DNA of 41,761 bases from a bacterium BMS3Abin08 (GTDB lineage Bacteria; Nitrospirota; Thermodesulfovibrionia; Thermodesulfovibrionales; JdFR-85), in assembly GCA_002897935.1 (NCBI GenBank), contig BDTA01000117.1:1-41761 (forward strand). The letters are read 5' to 3'. Each line of letters begins with the position of its first letter. The first letter of the stretch is position 1. Shown here one piece after another: positions 23,531 to 31,258 of the stretch. Below the pieces are notes generated by a model that searched no databases, had not been told where the DNA came from, and was given only the letters and a program-made list of their open reading frames with translations. Made by a program: the position numbers and the translations under genes.

Positions 23531-24190
23531 ATGGAAGATATCTCAACTGAAAGACTCGAGGAGGCCCTCGAACTCCTGTGGGTGCTCAATGAAGAAAACA
23601 AAGACAGTCTGACCCTACTTAAGGCCTGTTCCGACGACGACGAAATAGATAATGTTATTGAAGACCTTAAAAACAGGAAATGGGTAACCGTATATGCCGA
23701 CGATCTCAGGTTCACGGAAGAAGGTAAAAAGATTGCCAGGACTATTGTCAGGAGGCACCGCCTTGCGGAGCGCCTCTTTGCCGATGTCTTTGAGATGAAA
23801 GAGGAAATCATCCATGAGGATGCCTGCAGGATGGAACACATCCTCAGTGAAGAACTTACGGACAGTGTATGCACCTTTCTCGGTCATCCGCCCACATGTC
23901 CACATGGAAAACCGATCCCGAGAGGTGAGTGCTGCAGAAAGTACAAGACAAATGTTACACCACTTGTTGTAAGGCTCATTGACTTTGAGGTCGGCCGTCA
24001 AGGACGTATTACCTACATAGTGCCGGCAGACCCTGCACGGTTGAACAGACTGAATTCCATCGGGATTCATGCAGGGTCTACAATAAAACTGCTGCAGAGA
24101 TGGCCGTCTGTGGTTATACAGGTCGATGAAACTACGGTAGCGGTAGACCCGGACATCGCCAGGGAGATATTCATCAAAAAGGTCTCCTGA
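23531..24190 (+). CDS. DtxR/MntR-family metal-dependent transcription regulator
   Basis: The 219-residue protein begins with a divergent winged-helix region (1-72). The dimerisation/metal domain keeps both DtxR sites: H76 and E80 (RRHRLAER), H95, C99, E102 and H103 (HEDACRMEH), corresponding to DtxR H79, E83, H98, C102, E105 and H106. LGHPPTCPHGKPIP is a clear family motif. An unusual RGECCRK follows. The C-terminal 70 residues are a FeoA/SH3-like domain. A cysteine at the site-2 position favours iron over manganese. Presumed role: Fe(II)-responsive repression; targets are not proven. Its 3' end overlaps the histidine kinase's 3' end by 17 bases, convergently. Confidence 0.9.
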   Translation: MEDISTERLEEALELLWVLNEENKDSLTLLKACSDDDEIDNVIEDLKNRKWVTVYADDLRFTEEGKKIARTIVRRHRLAERLFADVFEMKEEIIHEDACRMEHILSEELTDSVCTFLGHPPTCPHGKPIPRGECCRKYKTNVTPLVVRLIDFEVGRQGRITYIVPADPARLNRLNSIGIHAGSTIKLLQRWPSVVIQVDETTVAVDPDIAREIFIKKVS

Positions 24191-26138
24191 CCGGTAGCAT
24201 TATCCTGAACATGGTTCCCCTCCCCTCGCTGCTTCTAACATCTATTCTGCCGCCATGCTCCTGGATGATTCTGTAACTTATGGGAAGGCCAAGACCGGTG
24301 CCTTTCTCTTTTTTTGTCGTAAAGAAGGGTTCGAATATCCTCTGGGCAACCTCATCGGATATACCCGTTCCGGTGTCGGAGAAGGAGACATAAACATGCC
24401 CGTTAAACTGCTCTGTTCTGATTGTCAGGGTCCCGCCATCGGGCATTGCCTGTATCGCGTTATTCATGATGTTAAGAAACACCTGTTTCAATTGGTTTCT
24501 GTCCGCAATGATAGGGGGCAATTCCAAATACTCCTTCACAACCTTTATTCTTGACTCTTTTAGGTTTGCAGCGACCAGCTTCAATACCTCCTCGATGGTA
24601 TCGACCACATCCATCTCGGAAAGTTCAAGTTTTCTTCTTCTTGAAAACTCAAGCAACTGCTTGACGATATCCCGTGCCCGGAGGGACTCACTCTCAATAA
24701 TAGCAAGATCCCTCTTTACACTTTCCATATCCTCCTCTTCCCTGAGAAGCTCTGAATATCCAAGTATTGTTGTAAGGGGGTTGTTAATTTCATGTGCGAC
24801 ATTGGCAGCAAGTTCGCCGATTGCGGCAAGCTTAGCAGCCTGAATAAGCTGTTCCTGTGCCTCCTTGAGTTTTTTCATCTGCTCCTGGAGGTCCCTGTAA
24901 AGCAGTGCATTATCAAGGGCAACGGCAAAGTTGTTACCCATTATGCTCAATAACCTCACGTCTTCTTCGGTAAAGGATCCCTGCCTGTTCTCCCTTAGCA
25001 AAAGCAAAAAACCCGTGAGTTCCTCCTTCCTCCTCAACCAGAAGACGAGCATATTACCAACGCCCTTTAACTTCTTGAAAATGCCGTTGTCAATAATTTT
25101 TTCAGAACCGAATATCAGCGCCCTCCTGGTACTCTCACTGTAGAGATTCATTATAAAGGTTTGTTCGGATGAGATCTCCTTTATCTCTTCCTCCTTAAAA
25201 CCGTAGTAGGGAATCATGGGTGTAAAGAATCCCTTTTTCTTGTCAATGAGTACGAGAACCGCCTTGTCCGTCTTAACCAGATCCGCAACCCCGGTAATCA
25301 ACTCCCGGTAGATATCCTTTTCCTCCGTCACCATATGAAGAGAGAGCGTTAAGTTATAGAGCCCCTTGAGTTTTGCCATGTAGCTGAGCGTCCTCTGATA
25401 CCCCTCCTTGAGGGACAAACTCATCTCATTAAACGTCTTTGCAAGCTGACCAAACTCCGTACTGTCTCTGAAATTAACCGTATAACCAAGTTCGCCTGAA
25501 GATACCCTCCGGGCAGCATCGGACAGCTTATGAATTGGGGTAAGGATCTCCTTTGTTAAGCTCACAGCCACAATAAAACCAAACAGCATTGTAAGAAAAA
25601 GGCTTGCGAGCAGGAAATTTTTTATCGTATGGACGTCTGAGAGTGCCTGTTCCGTCCTCTCCTGGAGTTTCTCATTGGCGATAAACGTCATCTCGTTTGC
25701 ATCGCGAAGGAGGACGGCCCCGATCTCGACTGCGGCACTCTGGAGACGTTTTACCCTTTCAGGGTTTGCAGTAGTGGTTATAAAGGCACTGAGGGCATCC
25801 TCATACTTACCCACATACTTCACAAGGTTGTTTAACCTTCTTGCCAAAGCCGGCCTGTGATGGCAGCTGTTGCATTTGGTGACCGCCCTGTCGAGGGATG
25901 ATACATTTCCAACGATAATATCAATCTCTGAACCAAAGGATGTTCCTATAGTATAGAGGTGTTTCTGGACGGTCTGGAGGTTTATGATCAGATCCTGTCT
26001 GAGGATCTCGACCCTGTGAAGGGTTATGAGTGATTTAAGGTCCCTTGAAACACGGGTAAGGGAGATAACGGCTATACCACCGGCTATACCAAAAAGCAAA
26101 AAGATGAAAAAGAGGTATCTTGTTATCTTTCTGCGCAT
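24174..26138 (-). CDS. Membrane sensor histidine kinase with a periplasmic c-type heme motif
   Basis: The 654-residue sensor has TM helix 1 (about 8-28), a helical periplasmic domain (about 30-170), TM2 (171-195), HAMP (about 190-245), GAF (about 270-420), HisKA with phospho-acceptor H449 (AHEINNPLTTILGYSELL) and HATPase_c with N box (NIMNNAIQAMPDGG), G1 (DTGTG) and G2 (GTGLGLP). The periplasmic domain contains KCNSCHHRP (C89, C92, H93), a canonical covalent heme-c attachment site, so it may sense redox state or a heme ligand such as NO or CO. There is no response regulator nearby. It is the last gene of the cytochrome/barrel/binding-protein operon, 12 bases after the PhnD-like gene. Confidence 0.93.
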   Translation of the reverse strand: MRRKITRYLFFIFLLFGIAGGIAVISLTRVSRDLKSLITLHRVEILRQDLIINLQTVQKHLYTIGTSFGSEIDIIVGNVSSLDRAVTKCNSCHHRPALARRLNNLVKYVGKYEDALSAFITTTANPERVKRLQSAAVEIGAVLLRDANEMTFIANEKLQERTEQALSDVHTIKNFLLASLFLTMLFGFIVAVSLTKEILTPIHKLSDAARRVSSGELGYTVNFRDSTEFGQLAKTFNEMSLSLKEGYQRTLSYMAKLKGLYNLTLSLHMVTEEKDIYRELITGVADLVKTDKAVLVLIDKKKGFFTPMIPYYGFKEEEIKEISSEQTFIMNLYSESTRRALIFGSEKIIDNGIFKKLKGVGNMLVFWLRRKEELTGFLLLLRENRQGSFTEEDVRLLSIMGNNFAVALDNALLYRDLQEQMKKLKEAQEQLIQAAKLAAIGELAANVAHEINNPLTTILGYSELLREEEDMESVKRDLAIIESESLRARDIVKQLLEFSRRRKLELSEMDVVDTIEEVLKLVAANLKESRIKVVKEYLELPPIIADRNQLKQVFLNIMNNAIQAMPDGGTLTIRTEQFNGHVYVSFSDTGTGISDEVAQRIFEPFFTTKKEKGTGLGLPISYRIIQEHGGRIDVRSSEGRGTMFRIMLPVRRPF

Positions 26139-26150
26139 TGTAGATCTTCT

Positions 26151-27050
26151 TTATTTGACCCTGTACTGATAATCGTCAACAGTCATTCCAAGCCTTTTAA
26201 TCATCTTGTAAACAGGTAAAAAATCGCCCCTACCAGCCTCGACAAACCCCTTCAAACCCATCTTCAGCAATACCTCCCTCCCCTCTTTATTCTTATCCAT
26301 TGAGAGGGTAACCTCCTTTATTCTTCTCTTTAATTCATCGGAAAGGCCCTTCCTGACCAGAAGAGTGCCTTCAGGCATGGGAGGGGATTCCGCTATTACT
26401 TTGAGTTCTTCCTTAATCGTCGGATCTCTTTTGGTAAGAGATTCAAACACCGTACTCTTAACGCTTCCTATGTCCGCTCTTCCATCAAGAACGGCATATA
26501 CCGTTGAGTCATGACTCCCGGTAAAGTAATACTCGGAAAAGAAATGTTTCAAGTTTTTAACCCCTTTATTTCTTAAATATACCAGGGTGAAAAGGTATCC
26601 CGTAACCGTCGCCCTGTCAACAAAGGCCATTACACGCCCTTTCATATCCGCTATGGATTTTATTCCACTGTCCTTACGTACTATAATATAACCCCTGGAA
26701 ACCGACGAATCATCAAGATTAACCGATCTCACAAGGGGTATCACCCCAAGCTTTTTTATGGCAAGGGCACCCGTGAGGTCTCCAAAAAAGGCGCCATCCA
26801 TCTTTCTCTGGTTAAACCGGTCTATAATGTCCCCGTACCGGCTCAGTATTGTCAGTTTCACCTTTATGCCCAAACGCTCAGATAGATATCCGGCAAAGGG
26901 CCTGAACCTGTCCATCTGACGAAAGATGTTCTGCTCAGGAATCAGGCCAAGCAGCAGTGTATCCTGCCCGGCCCGAGCATAACCTTTGAACAGGGACAGT
27001 GTTAAGACGGCAAACAATATGGCGCCAACTATAAACCTTGGATATCTCAT
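26151..27050 (-). CDS. PhnD-family periplasmic substrate-binding protein
   Basis: The 299-residue protein has an N-terminal signal sequence (about 1-27, ending ARA-G) and a two-lobed PhnD-like fold (PF12974). Supporting segments are LLLGLIPEQNIFRQMDRFRP, AGYLSERLGIKVKL, ADMKGRVMAFVD, TGYLFTLVYL, TGSHDSTVYAVLDGRADIG and VIAESPPMPEGTL. Family members bind phosphonates, phosphite or other oxyanions for ABC import, or act as the sensing partner of histidine kinases. No permease or ATPase gene is present, and it is directly followed by a histidine kinase, so a sensory role is inferred. The ATG at 27050 shares a base with the stop of the upstream gene (TGATG). Confidence 0.87.
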   Translation of the reverse strand: MRYPRFIVGAILFAVLTLSLFKGYARAGQDTLLLGLIPEQNIFRQMDRFRPFAGYLSERLGIKVKLTILSRYGDIIDRFNQRKMDGAFFGDLTGALAIKKLGVIPLVRSVNLDDSSVSRGYIIVRKDSGIKSIADMKGRVMAFVDRATVTGYLFTLVYLRNKGVKNLKHFFSEYYFTGSHDSTVYAVLDGRADIGSVKSTVFESLTKRDPTIKEELKVIAESPPMPEGTLLVRKGLSDELKRRIKEVTLSMDKNKEGREVLLKMGLKGFVEAGRGDFLPVYKMIKRLGMTVDDYQYRVK

Positions 27051-28006
27051 CACCTGATCAACCTGTCGGATTCAGTAAGGAGTTCTACCGGCACATCAAG
27101 GCCCAGTTTCCTCGCAAGCTTGAGGTTAAAAACAAGTCTGTTTTTCATAAGAATCGTTATCTGCCCTGCCTTCCCACGCAAATCAGCCTCTCTCAATAAC
27201 CGGATCAGTTTGTCGGCAAGCACAATCCCCTGTCCGGAGGGCTTGGTATAAAGGGATATAAGTGCTTCCTGCTCCAGCCCACCCATGGTTGTTACAACAC
27301 TTATCCCCTTTTTCTCCAGGAGGTTGGAAAAGGAAGACATGTTTTTTGCAAGCACTGCGCTACCGGTTATGAACAGGGAATCTATTGAATAAAGCCTCAG
27401 CTTCTCTCTGATTTCAGAGGAATTCCTGATCCCTAAAAGCACGGATTCCGTTGAAAATGTCTTACATGTCTTTTCAACCTCTTTTGCCTCGATAAAGGAG
27501 GACTTCTCGATCTTGGAATATATTATGCCGATCCTCTTTACAGGAACGACTTTTTTCAAATAACGTATAAGACTCGATACCGGAACCCTGTATCCGACAC
27601 CACTGAAATTCCCTGTCTTCAGTCCTGCTTTTATGGGTTCATAAACACCTGCAAACAAAAGGGGCGTGGAATGGACCTCATACCGGGCTGCATCGGCAGC
27701 ACCGGAACCGTAAGCCACTATTATGGAGGCATCATAGGCAAGGAGCTTCCTGATGGCATTACTCCAGGCAATTGCATCAGGATTTGGTTTCTGTATAAGG
27801 ATATTCAGTCTATCGAGATATCCTCCTTTCCTGAGCCGCTTGATGAAGGCGCTGTGGATCTCACTGTAAAAAGGGATATCCGCAGAAAAAACCACCCCGA
27901 TTGTGGTTTTCTCCTGACCAAAAAGAGACGACGGCACAAGCAAAAAAAACAAAAGGCCCAGCCACAGCATCAAGACCTTCAGGCTTCTGTCTGAATGAAA
28001 AGACAA
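27050..28006 (-). CDS. ABC-type substrate-binding protein (PF04392/TrpX-like)
   Basis: The 318-residue protein has a signal peptide (about 9-30, ending SLFGQ). Then follow the TTIGVVFSADIPFYSEIHSAF start, AYGSGAADAARY, TPLLFAGVYEP, a NFSGVGYRVPV segment and IGIIYSK, all features of the periplasmic ABC_sub_bind (TrpX-like) fold related to type-1 binding proteins. These are usually encoded with permease and ATPase genes; none is here. The C-terminal FNLKLARKLGLDVPVELL is typical of the family. It begins with TTG at 28006 after AAAGGG, 25 bases after the barrel gene, and is coupled to the PhnD-like gene. Ligand unknown. Confidence 0.82.
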   Translation of the reverse strand: MSFHSDRSLKVLMLWLGLLFFLLVPSSLFGQEKTTIGVVFSADIPFYSEIHSAFIKRLRKGGYLDRLNILIQKPNPDAIAWSNAIRKLLAYDASIIVAYGSGAADAARYEVHSTPLLFAGVYEPIKAGLKTGNFSGVGYRVPVSSLIRYLKKVVPVKRIGIIYSKIEKSSFIEAKEVEKTCKTFSTESVLLGIRNSSEIREKLRLYSIDSLFITGSAVLAKNMSSFSNLLEKKGISVVTTMGGLEQEALISLYTKPSGQGIVLADKLIRLLREADLRGKAGQITILMKNRLVFNLKLARKLGLDVPVELLTESDRLIR

Positions 28007-28031: not shown

Positions 28032-29993
28032 CTACCATTTTTTAGACAGCAGGATCATCGCACGATATGCACTACCGTTATTGCTGCTTTCGATCCCATC
28101 GGTATACCTTTCATACACAACAATTGATTCCAGTCTCATTCCCGCTGGGAAACCGTAGTTCAACTTCAAAGAGAGTTCCGTATCCTTAACCTTGATACTG
28201 GAAAAAGAGCCTATATCACCGGCGGGTTCAGTGGACGTCCTGAACCTGCCCGTTGTGTTTGTATGAAACAACCCGGCAGTCAGGTCAAGACGGTCATTGA
28301 TTTTCTGACTTACCCCCAGGATATAGATCCTCGACTCATCATTATAGGGAACCCCGTCCTCCATAACGGACAAACCGGGGTTGGATGATCCATCTCCTGC
28401 AAAAGTTGAAAAAAGGAGTGACTGTCTTATCCCGTTTCTGTAAAACCCGAACCCTGCAGTAAAAGACGTTTTCTCAAAGGGGAAAAACGATGTTAGAAAG
28501 AGGACGTTCTGCATGGTGTTGTTCCTCTCGCCATCCTCGATCAGGACATCATTGCCACCGTCAAAATACCTGAGATTATCGTTTCTGTCCCATCTGATTT
28601 TATAAGACAGGGTCGTTGTCATCCAGGATGAGAGGGTGTAACTGCCATACAACCTGACCTCATGAGACCTCTCCGGCTCTGAATTGTAGAGGGGCCTCCG
28701 GTTATCGGTGAATATGTATTGTCCCCTTAGTTTCAGCCCCTTTAAAATCCTTCCAAAGGCCTTTATTGAAAAGGTCTTTTTTACTGTATCGGCGTCAAGA
28801 AGCATCCATCCGTCCGTGTCTGAACGTTTGATGTCGGCAATAGAAAAGCTTCCTGCTATATTGAATCTTCTGAAGGGGCGTGACCTTATATCAAGTGAGA
28901 GTTCATGTTTTTTTATGTCCGGGGCCTTCCTCACCCCGGTTGTCACAGTACTGTTCAAACCGTAAAGTGTGGTTTCATCAGGATTGACCTCATCCGTTTC
29001 ACGGTAACGGTATCTCAGGAAAAAAGCGAGTTCAGGAATCGGGATATAACTGACCTGACCTGCACCTATAAGGCTGCTCCTCTCTACACCGCTGAATGTA
29101 TTACGATGGCTTATCTTCCCCACAGTTGCAGATGAAACAAGGCTTCCCGTATAGGAGGTATGAATCCTGATGAAATCCGACGACCCCCTGAATTCGGGGA
29201 TAACATTATGTTGATATACGTCCCCGGGTCTGTATCCGGTTTCCGGATACATATCACTCATGGATGTTTCACCTCCGGGGCTGAAGTTCTTTTCTCCATG
29301 GGTATACTCGATCTCGATAGGGCCGAAATGACCGTTTGCACCAAAGTTAACCTCAGCGGTTTCATATTTTACTCTACGCACATCGGCGGTCACCGTCATC
29401 TCCGTCCCGAACGTACCTATCAGATACCTCTGTTGTCTCTCACCGTTTTTGTAATAACCATGGTATCCTACAAATAAATGAAAGGGATACCCTGGATATT
29501 TAAACCTCAGATTGAACACCGCATTCTTTATATCTTCCTCGTATTCACCCCCTCTGTCCCGGTCAAGATAACGCCTCTCTTCCGAAGGATCAGTAGCGGG
29601 AAAAAGGGAATGAGCCGTGTTATGTACAAACTCCGTAAGGACTAACCGCGACAGTATAAGGTCCCTGTAGGAATACCCTGTATCGAGGTAGAGGTCGTCA
29701 TCGGAATATACAAACACCTCCAGGTGCAACCTGTGAGGGAGTGGATAGGCCTCAAGCACCCCTTCTATCACCAGTGAATCATCATCCTCCATGTACTCAA
29801 TCACCCGCTTGGATCCATCGACTCTTGTGAAGTTATAACCCACCCCCAGGGAATACGTCGGCTTATACGGGTGACCGACCTGCAGTTCGAAGGCGGAAAC
29901 CGTCCCTGTGTTCAACAGTATAATGAGGATCAACATCAGAAAGGTTTCCGTGATATCCGGACCGTACGTTTTATAAGGATAAACCCTATTCAT
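28032..29993 (-). CDS. MtrB/PioB-like outer-membrane beta-barrel paired with a decaheme cytochrome
   Basis: The 653-residue protein has a hydrophobic signal sequence (about 15-35) and then alternating amphipathic beta strands through to the last residue. It is rich in Tyr, Arg, Asp, Thr and Gly, and ends in an aromatic (LLSKKW), the outer-membrane barrel signature. Size and its ATGA-coupled position after a decaheme cytochrome gene match MtrB/PioB barrels, which sheathe the cytochrome across the outer membrane so electrons can cross. The N-terminal CXXC of Shewanella MtrB is not seen. Strand content was judged by eye; the family assignment is from size, composition and context, not alignment. 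Confidence 0.78.
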   Translation of the reverse strand: MNRVYPYKTYGPDITETFLMLILIILLNTGTVSAFELQVGHPYKPTYSLGVGYNFTRVDGSKRVIEYMEDDDSLVIEGVLEAYPLPHRLHLEVFVYSDDDLYLDTGYSYRDLILSRLVLTEFVHNTAHSLFPATDPSEERRYLDRDRGGEYEEDIKNAVFNLRFKYPGYPFHLFVGYHGYYKNGERQQRYLIGTFGTEMTVTADVRRVKYETAEVNFGANGHFGPIEIEYTHGEKNFSPGGETSMSDMYPETGYRPGDVYQHNVIPEFRGSSDFIRIHTSYTGSLVSSATVGKISHRNTFSGVERSSLIGAGQVSYIPIPELAFFLRYRYRETDEVNPDETTLYGLNSTVTTGVRKAPDIKKHELSLDIRSRPFRRFNIAGSFSIADIKRSDTDGWMLLDADTVKKTFSIKAFGRILKGLKLRGQYIFTDNRRPLYNSEPERSHEVRLYGSYTLSSWMTTTLSYKIRWDRNDNLRYFDGGNDVLIEDGERNNTMQNVLFLTSFFPFEKTSFTAGFGFYRNGIRQSLLFSTFAGDGSSNPGLSVMEDGVPYNDESRIYILGVSQKINDRLDLTAGLFHTNTTGRFRTSTEPAGDIGSFSSIKVKDTELSLKLNYGFPAGMRLESIVVYERYTDGIESSNNGSAYRAMILLSKKW

Positions 29994-31000
29994 TGAATAA
30001 ACAGGCCCCTACCGCTTGGTGAAGGAATGTCCGTGCCGTGGATCTGACTGTGACAGTTCGTGCATTTTGTATAAAAAAAGCGCTTGACCTCTCTGCCGGC
30101 CGCTGCCCCTGAAGCAGTATTTATCCTGTGTCCTTCATGACATTGAAGACACAGGAAAGGGACCCTTACCGTAAGGAGGTTATTGTTGGGAGATCCATGG
30201 GGCGTATGGCAGTTCAGACAGTCTTGCGTGAGGTCCCCGTGTTCAAAAAGAAAGGGACCCTCTTTTTCACCATGACACGCTGTACAGGTATCTCTTACCG
30301 ACTGTCCCTTGAGGAGCCTGCCCGTAGTTGTTCCATGAGGGTTATGACAGTCAAAACAGAATATCTTCCCCTCCGGTACGGGATGATGGCTTGGTAGCCT
30401 GAAGGATGCAGCGATGTCCTCATGACATTTAAAACACATCCCGGCCGTCTCTCTTGGTTTTAGCTTTAAGTCCGGCCCCTGATGAATCCTGTGGCAGTCC
30501 GAACATGAAACGTCATTGACTGCATGGACCCCGGCATTCCACTCGTGGAGGTTAAAGGTGGCGTTGGCGGTATGGCATTTCAGGCAGATCAGGCTTTTTG
30601 CGGGCGCCGGGAGATTCTTTATATCGATGAGGGTTTTGTAGTTGCATTCCGTCTTTATCCCCTTTTTAGAATTCTCTTCAACGACCTGCTTTGACAACCC
30701 CTTTATAGCAAGACTCCCCGGGCCATGGCAGGATTCACAATCAACAATCGGGAGACCGGATTCCCTGCTCAACTGCACTCCCATCGTGCTTGACTCAAAG
30801 GCAGCCCTTATCTCGTCATGAGCATGACAGGAGGAAAGACAGTTGCCGGTGCCGACATACTCTGCATCGAACCTCCCCGCTATCATCCTTTCATATTTCT
30901 TCTGGGAAATGATGGGGGCTGAACGCTTCAGTTCAACACATCCAACGACAACAGCGGCAAGTACGACGATTAATATCCCTACTTTATACCCTTTAGTCAT
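29990..31000 (-). CDS. Decaheme c-type cytochrome (MtrA/DmsE-like), lipoprotein
   Basis: The 336-residue protein begins with a lipoprotein signal (VVLAAVVVGC, C21 as lipid site). Nine canonical CXXCH motifs follow (CESCH, CLKCH, CSDCH, CFKCH, CFDCH, CTACH, CLNCH, CLQCH, CTNCH). The first potential site is CLSSCH (C54-C58-H59), a CX3CH with an extra residue, so the protein would carry nine or ten hemes. Spacing and length match MtrA/DmsE decahemes, which move electrons across the periplasm to an outer-membrane barrel. It is the promoter-proximal gene of a five-gene minus-strand unit, overlapping the barrel gene by 4 bases. No inner-membrane CymA-type quinol oxidase or extracellular MtrC-type cytochrome is in view. 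Confidence 0.92.
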   Translation of the reverse strand: MTKGYKVGILIVVLAAVVVGCVELKRSAPIISQKKYERMIAGRFDAEYVGTGNCLSSCHAHDEIRAAFESSTMGVQLSRESGLPIVDCESCHGPGSLAIKGLSKQVVEENSKKGIKTECNYKTLIDIKNLPAPAKSLICLKCHTANATFNLHEWNAGVHAVNDVSCSDCHRIHQGPDLKLKPRETAGMCFKCHEDIAASFRLPSHHPVPEGKIFCFDCHNPHGTTTGRLLKGQSVRDTCTACHGEKEGPFLFEHGDLTQDCLNCHTPHGSPNNNLLTVRVPFLCLQCHEGHRINTASGAAAGREVKRFFYTKCTNCHSQIHGTDIPSPSGRGLFIQ

Positions 31001-31085
31001 CTACTTTTAAACTCCTGGAGTCAGTGAAGTTGCTGCAAGACCGAGCTAACACCGACATTATGAAAGCATACTAAAGAGAAAAGGT

Positions 31086-31136
31086 ATTTACAATGCACCT
31101 TGCCGAAAGCCCCGACCTTTGGTCGGAGAGCTTGAC
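31086..31136 (-). repeat. 51-bp dispersed repeat, copy B
   Basis: The reverse complement matches 10977-11027 with one mismatch. It lies in the 258-base gap between rnj and the cytochrome gene, upstream of the latter, so it may be part of its 5' region. Confidence 0.8.
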
Positions 31137-31258
31137 TTGCGGGTCTTTGCGACCTTACCCCTTGAGAGAAAACAGCGCAAGCATTCAGTGTTACAGAAGG
31201 CACGGCTTTACAAAGGAACCCGATATATTCCAGTTGTGTATATTACCCCGAAAGACGC

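Follow-up and report, generated by a model that had tools for sequence, protein, structure and literature searches.

The window, a 41,761-nucleotide stretch of the genome of bacterium BMS3Abin08 (contig BDTA01000117.1), encodes a sensor histidine kinase with a strongly conserved periplasmic sensor domain that is of the heme c type by its motif, is predicted to fold as a four-helix bundle, has no Pfam family, and is tied to a gene for a PhnD-like periplasmic binding protein. This combination is a real feature. We consider it probable that the domain represents a family of Nitrospirota and Desulfobacterota lacking a Pfam model, in which the c-heme four-helix-bundle kinase and the PhnD-like protein together sense an oxyanion and, in addition, either redox state or a ligand of the heme. 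The analysis shows the sequence and topology of the kinase, its conservation, the association of the two genes, and a predicted fold; heme attachment, docking, the ligand, and the regulon are inferred.

Domain organization and topology of the kinase

The kinase gene (24174..26138, minus strand; 654 aa) encodes, as judged from the open reading frame, its translation, and Pfam, a first membrane helix, a periplasmic sensor containing CNSCHH, a second membrane helix, and HAMP, GAF, HisKA, and HATPase domains. Hydropathy placed TM1 at residues 9-27 (26058..26114, minus strand) and TM2 at residues 176-194 (25557..25613, minus strand). Downstream of these, on the same strand, Pfam identified the HAMP domain (residues 194-244; 25407..25559), the GAF domain (residues 274-410; 24909..25319), and the kinase core (HisKA 441-501 and HATPase 546-651; 24186..24818). 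HisKA and HATPase_c scored 63.6 and 98.1 bits against curated cut-offs of 26.9 and 26.4, as expected of a histidine kinase. Because the hydropathy peaks lie at 9-27 and 176-194, the N-terminus is basic, and HAMP follows TM2, residues 31-172 (25623..26048, minus strand) can be assigned to the periplasm, where AlphaFold models predict a four-helix bundle. Hydropathy and Pfam thus agree with the preliminary description, which had placed a heme motif between the two membrane helices of a HAMP-GAF-HisKA kinase; a cytoplasmic location, which would have spoken against its reading, did not emerge. By codon arithmetic KCNSCHHRP spans residues 88-96 (25851-25877), inside the interval 25845-25880 given there and with C89, C92, and H93 numbered correctly. 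The predicted heme c attachment site with its conserved second histidine, CNSCHH, occupies residues 89-94 (25857..25874, minus strand).

Conservation of the CxxCHH motif

Of 176 genomes searched within the order, 100 matched the N-terminal region at E <= 0.001, the weak end of these being largely matches to the TM2-HAMP part alone. We took 80 stretches around chosen matches, both strong and weak, which together with the window gave 81 proteins scoring > 50 bits to the sensor region. CxxCHH was present in 80 of these 81 homologues, so that the loss in orthologues that would have counted against a heme did not occur; the remaining open reading frame (L071) starts inside the motif and was left out of the 80-row alignment. 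R47 (helix 1; codon 25998..26000, minus strand), C89, C92, H93, and H94 were invariant in all 80 aligned rows, and the residues between the two motif cysteines varied freely. H41 (26016..26018, minus strand) and M150 (25689..25691, minus strand) were each kept in 75 of 80 rows.

A scan of named genomes returned 58 loci, of which 57 were relatives (L169, with 50 residues in the HAMP part, was dropped), under titles that included Nitrospirae/Nitrospirota, Thermodesulfovibrio, Desulfobulbaceae, Desulfobacteraceae, Deltaproteobacteria, and others. All 57 carry CxxCHH, a count that shares many genomes with the 80 of 81 and is not independent of it. For wider searches a profile of the whole region was swamped by HAMP (386 of 395 genomes of the phylum matched), and we therefore used a HAMP-free profile, which found the sensor domain in 110 of the 395 genomes from the window's phylum and in 27 of 395 from a second phylum, that of a Desulfobulbaceae MAG. 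Among 30 loci of the second phylum CxxCH was present in 30 and CxxCHH in 29, the one exception reading CIGCHQ. CxxCHH was also present in each of 14 further strong relatives (14/14), which come from different families and classes within the window's phylum. Three much diverged relatives (30-38 bits) read CMQCHS or CMQCHP, that is, CxxCH without the second histidine; a receiver gene lies directly downstream in all three and a PhnD-like gene directly upstream in two. L286 (19 bits, no motif) was counted as outside the sensor family, L296, which consists of a 100-base placeholder, was left aside, and no relative was found in the viral contigs searched.

Judged by this conservation (80/81 and 57/57 for CxxCHH among relatives, 30/30 for CxxCH in the second phylum), the motif in the kinase sensor loop is not a product of chance. 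Since diverged relatives drop the second histidine and keep CxxCH, the conserved core of the motif points to a heme c attachment site rather than a four-ligand metal site. The genome contains five matches to the cytochrome assembly family PF01578, and a periplasmic CxxCH in a cytochrome-making host normally carries heme. The window's kinase has what marks a c-type heme protein, a periplasmic CxxCH conserved in relatives, and its sensor loop probably bears a covalent heme.

A predicted all-helical sensor domain

The preliminary description had called the kinase otherwise standard, which overlooks the nature of its sensor loop. Residues 1-196 gave no Pfam match even at E 10, and 58 sensor regions compared with Pfam matched HAMP families and otherwise gave four chance hits of one member each, PF11845 not being among them. 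NCBIfam matches of the window's sensor region all included the TM2-HAMP part, and a profile search of PDB sequences with this region recovered mainly HAMP segments.

AlphaFold models of residues 1-250 (mean pLDDT 82.4, pTM 0.51) and of residues 29-172 alone (mean pLDDT 78.1, pTM 0.66) both consist of four periplasmic helices (about 30-63, 70-90, 96-121, and 126-171) with no strand, and in both the heme motif lies at the end of helix 2 and in the turn to helix 3. Going by helix lengths, this turn should sit at the height of H41-R47 in helix 1 and close to M150 in helix 4. H41 and M150 are for this reason alternative candidates for the distal heme ligand, and R47 is a candidate for contacting a heme propionate or a bound anion.

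Foldseek matched the long model best to NarQ (E 4.1e-5) and the short model best to the Adeh_2942 four-helix sensor (E 1.9e-3). In VIA-align the XylFII-bound LytS sensor came top for both the long model (Z 16.9, rmsd 1.8, 118 residues) and the short model (Z 15.9, rmsd 1.7, 118 residues), although for the short model rows 2-11 were within 1 Z of it and count as tied. Predicted models and structure matches agree on a four-helix periplasmic bundle like that of LytS/TorS-type sensors. Helical-bundle matches are easily generic, and because other four-helix sensors and designed bundles were tied or close, we take these matches to indicate arrangement, not kinship. Cytochrome c' was absent from the top 50 VIA-align rows, which is uninformative.

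The PhnD-like binding protein is the constant gene partner

Directly upstream of the kinase gene lies a gene for a PhnD-like periplasmic binding protein (Phosphonate-bd, Pfam 1.8e-61; 26151..27053, minus strand), the proposed sensing partner, followed upstream by an ABC_sub_bind-type periplasmic binding protein (Pfam; 27050..28006, minus strand), a possible second partner. Beyond these lie an MtrB/PioB-like outer-membrane barrel (GSU2204-like by family profiles; 28032..29993, minus strand) and a DmsE/MtrA/GSU2203-like decaheme-family cytochrome (TIGR03508, 1.5e-75, above cut-off; 29990..31000, minus strand), both belonging to the operon of this clade. All five genes are on one strand and either overlap or are <=25 bp apart, and so appear to form a single operon. 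A G+C-rich hairpin could form on the minus strand in the 5' region of the decaheme gene (about 31060-31190); it matched no Rfam family and was not evident upstream in 11 relatives compared. On the other side, a gene for a DtxR-like regulator with a FeoA-type domain (23531-24190) faces the kinase gene in convergent orientation, overlapping the 3' end of the latter; in 22 of 81 loci the convergent gene at +1 belongs to a family of this protein's size.

The neighbouring multiheme cytochrome and binding proteins are therefore present as the preliminary description had claimed, but its use of the cytochrome as support for a redox signal fares less well, MtrA-like and MtrB-like genes being found at only 12 of 81 kinase loci. 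Open reading frames with at least four CxxCH motifs numbered 4 in the 398 kb of the 20 control stretches (3/20 stretches). The surroundings of the 62 loci closest to that of the window had 13 in 920 kb (13/62), and those of the 19 more diverged loci had 13 in 285 kb (8/19). Enrichment in multiheme genes is thus confined to the diverged group, and the window's kinase type is hardly above controls. With a link that is clade-specific and a density near that of controls, the cytochrome neighbourhood is weakened as a main argument.

By comparison, the PhnD-like gene is at -1 on the same strand in 57 of 81 kinase loci, and the ABC_sub_bind-type gene at -2 in 37 of 81. An adjacent PhnD-like gene was not found at the other 24 of the 81, some of which are near contig ends. 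In the second phylum a PhnD-like gene lies directly upstream in 25 of 30 loci. The control took in kinases whose core could be recognised, both in these stretches and in the 20 control stretches: a PhnD-like gene adjoins 54 of the 74 heme kinases and none of the 28 others. The constant gene partner of the heme kinase is the PhnD-like binding protein, not a cytochrome, and this pairing of a kinase with an adjoining small-molecule-binding protein suggests a two-part sensor of respiratory conditions.

Compared with PDB sequences, the window's PhnD-like protein matched PtxB (2.4e-28), ArrX (4.3e-20), and AioX (about 1e-18). It has glycine where ArrX has cysteine, at the AioX thiol position, and so lacks the cysteine associated with arsenite binding. 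With that residue replaced, arsenite-like sensing appears unlikely, and an oxyanion other than arsenite is the more likely ligand. The pocket histidine of the protein is H in only 46 of 56 relatives.

Response regulators and outputs

The preliminary description had noted that no response regulator is encoded nearby, and indeed none of the genome's 78 receiver-domain matches falls on the window contig (41.8 kb). A search for the cognate regulator accordingly yielded none there, while relatives show its likely kind. In 14 of 81 loci the kinase gene is immediately followed, on its own strand, by one for a receiver protein, and ten of these 14 regulators (462-472 aa) all combine a receiver, a sigma-54 activation domain, and a Fis-type HTH (10/10, Pfam), that is, they are adjacent sigma-54 (NtrC-type) regulators. 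In seven of the 81 a receiver profile matched within the kinase itself, two of these matches being only partial. In L066, a diverged relative, kinase and regulator genes are divergent from MtrA/MtrB-like genes, a layout that hints at action of the regulator on the MtrA/MtrB conduit. A search for sigma-54 promoters gave 11 matches against 15.4 expected by chance.

Outputs among 44 full-length proteins scanned were HisKA (37), GGDEF (7), and EAL (6). The heme sensor domain may therefore feed c-di-GMP signalling too, and because the same sensor is also joined to GGDEF and EAL outputs, one mechanism may not fit all members.

Proposed mechanism and alternative explanations

In the explanation that we favour, one covalent c-type heme would sit where helix 2 turns into helix 3 of the periplasmic bundle. 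The PhnD-like protein encoded just upstream would bind a small oxyanion-like solute and dock on the bundle, in the manner of AioX-AioS, TorT-TorS, and XylFII-LytS, and the heme would contribute an input from redox state or from a heme ligand. By way of TM2 and HAMP the joint signal would reach the kinase, and the kinase would phosphorylate a sigma-54 (NtrC-type) regulator encoded by the next gene in relatives and elsewhere in this genome. In this clade the output would likely be, or include, the MtrA/MtrB-like electron conduit of the kinase operon. Within this scheme we infer redox or gas sensing by the heme; control of the mtrAB-like genes and the combination of two inputs in one domain are speculative. 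In a stronger form, which we put forward only tentatively, heme redox or ligand state and a docked, oxyanion-loaded PhnD-like protein would be integrated in one periplasmic bundle as two keys, so that genes for the multiheme and outer-membrane conduit are switched on only with an acceptor present and the right periplasmic electron pool. If true, this two-key class of sensors spans two phyla and feeds kinase, hybrid-kinase, and c-di-GMP outputs.

The heme could instead work by itself as a plain gas or redox sensor for NO, O2, CO, or periplasmic potential, with the binding protein in the operon for some other reason. This would be in keeping with known signalling-type c-heme Cache domains, described in PMC12889525 as binding NO and not O2, and with the 24 loci at which no adjacent PhnD-like gene was found. 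It sits poorly with recurrence of that gene at the same position in two phyla (57/81 and 25/30) and beside none of the 28 other kinases, as well as with a predicted fold that is that of sensors able to take binding-protein input, and we think it rather unlikely. Heme might also be present without informing the kinase, either as a structural element or by exchanging electrons with the decaheme protein, so that the kinase reads the binding protein only. The MtrA/MtrB-like genes in the operon of this clade (12/81 loci) would suit such a role; most loci, however, lack those cytochrome genes yet keep the motif, and we give this reading very little credence.

A further alternative dispenses with heme, CxxCHH binding a metal ion (Zn, Fe, or Cu) or forming a redox disulfide. 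C-C-H-H, unchanged in all 80 rows, offers the four potential ligands that a metal site would be expected to show, but four diverged relatives drop the second histidine only and retain CxxCH, the residues between the cysteines vary freely as they do in heme c motifs, and the host makes c-type cytochromes. A metal or disulfide site is accordingly disfavoured, and we judge it improbable. We therefore retain the c-heme kinase with its PhnD-like partner as the preferred explanation.

Comparison with known sensory systems

ArrX and AioX are described as the first components of kinase systems for sensing oxyanions of arsenic (PMC5908839, PMC7533571), and AioR and ArxR as AtoC-family (sigma-54) regulators (PMC5908839). 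As in AioX-AioS-AioR, ArrX-ArrS, and ArxX-ArxS, a PhnD-family gene stands beside a membrane histidine kinase in the window and in 57 of 81 loci, and ten relatives of the window kinase have a sigma-54 regulator next to it, like the AioR and ArxR systems as described. The window differs from AioXSR in having no regulator gene on its contig (one is present in the same cluster in the ten relatives), in the glycine that replaces the AioX cysteine, and in the CxxCH of its sensor, the word heme being absent from the AioXSR review PMC7533571 in its available text.

The sCache_heme sensors (DUF3365/Tll0287, PF11845), for example GSU0582 and GSU0935, are reported to be fused to kinases or GGDEF/EAL domains and to occur in Nitrospirota and Desulfobacterota (PMC12889525). 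They share with the window kinase a periplasmic c-heme motif in a sensory protein, as far as that source describes them; it is a 2026 preprint that assigns PF11845 heme-Cache domains to the Cache fold and describes NO binding. The window sensor, in contrast, has no PF11845 match, and unlike the alpha/beta Cache fold both of its models are all-helical with no strands.

LytS and TorS are not known to have a heme site, and XylFII and TorT are not known to be PhnD-family proteins. These systems nonetheless resemble the one in the window in their helical sensor fold, here predicted, and in having a binding-protein partner gene, and binding proteins can activate sensor kinases (PMC6321045, as described there). 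The window kinase also shares the TM-helical bundle-TM-HAMP layout of the NarQ and NarX nitrate sensors. Its local profile alignment with E. coli NarQ spans only residues 165-245 (TM2 and HAMP), and E. coli NarQ has no cysteine in the 240 residues compared. Both proteins have an arginine in the region of the first periplasmic helix (the nitrate-binding R50 in NarQ, R47 here); this region is outside the local alignment, and equating R47 with the NarQ nitrate arginine has no sequence support. DcrA is a chemoreceptor, not a kinase. It is described as using a periplasmic c-type heme for redox and oxygen sensing (PMC8396549), and the predicted periplasmic c-type heme of the window kinase is like it by that description only.

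In the open-access literature, as available in part, we recognised no account of a c-heme kinase of the four-helix kind paired with a PhnD-like protein. Cache-type domains, whose binding of NO is described in PMC12889525, are the main known case of sensing by covalent heme outside the cytoplasm. A second family, all-helical and with a binding protein as its fixed partner, would be a solution reached independently, and would give a handle on when the mostly uncultured, cytochrome-rich Nitrospirota and Desulfobacterota build electron-export machinery. Though common in its phylum, the sensor family has no Pfam model and goes unnamed in annotation.

Related arrangements elsewhere in the genome

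On four other contigs of the same genome (C67, C36, C21, and C58; L212-L215), a PhnD-like protein, a membrane kinase without CxxCH, and a response regulator are encoded in a row, and pairing of PhnD-like proteins with kinases is therefore not confined to heme kinases. An iron-sulfur protein follows the row on C67, and the binding protein on C36 has two PhnD domains. A chemoreceptor of 950 aa (HAMP, MCPsignal) on contig C46 (L216:901-3753) has CQKCHL at residue 135 in an N-terminal sensor that matches PF21563 (Mcp40H-20_sensor) weakly, below its cut-off. After its signalling domain this protein carries a full PhnD-type domain (residues 700-937), so that heme motif and PhnD domain are found in one polypeptide.
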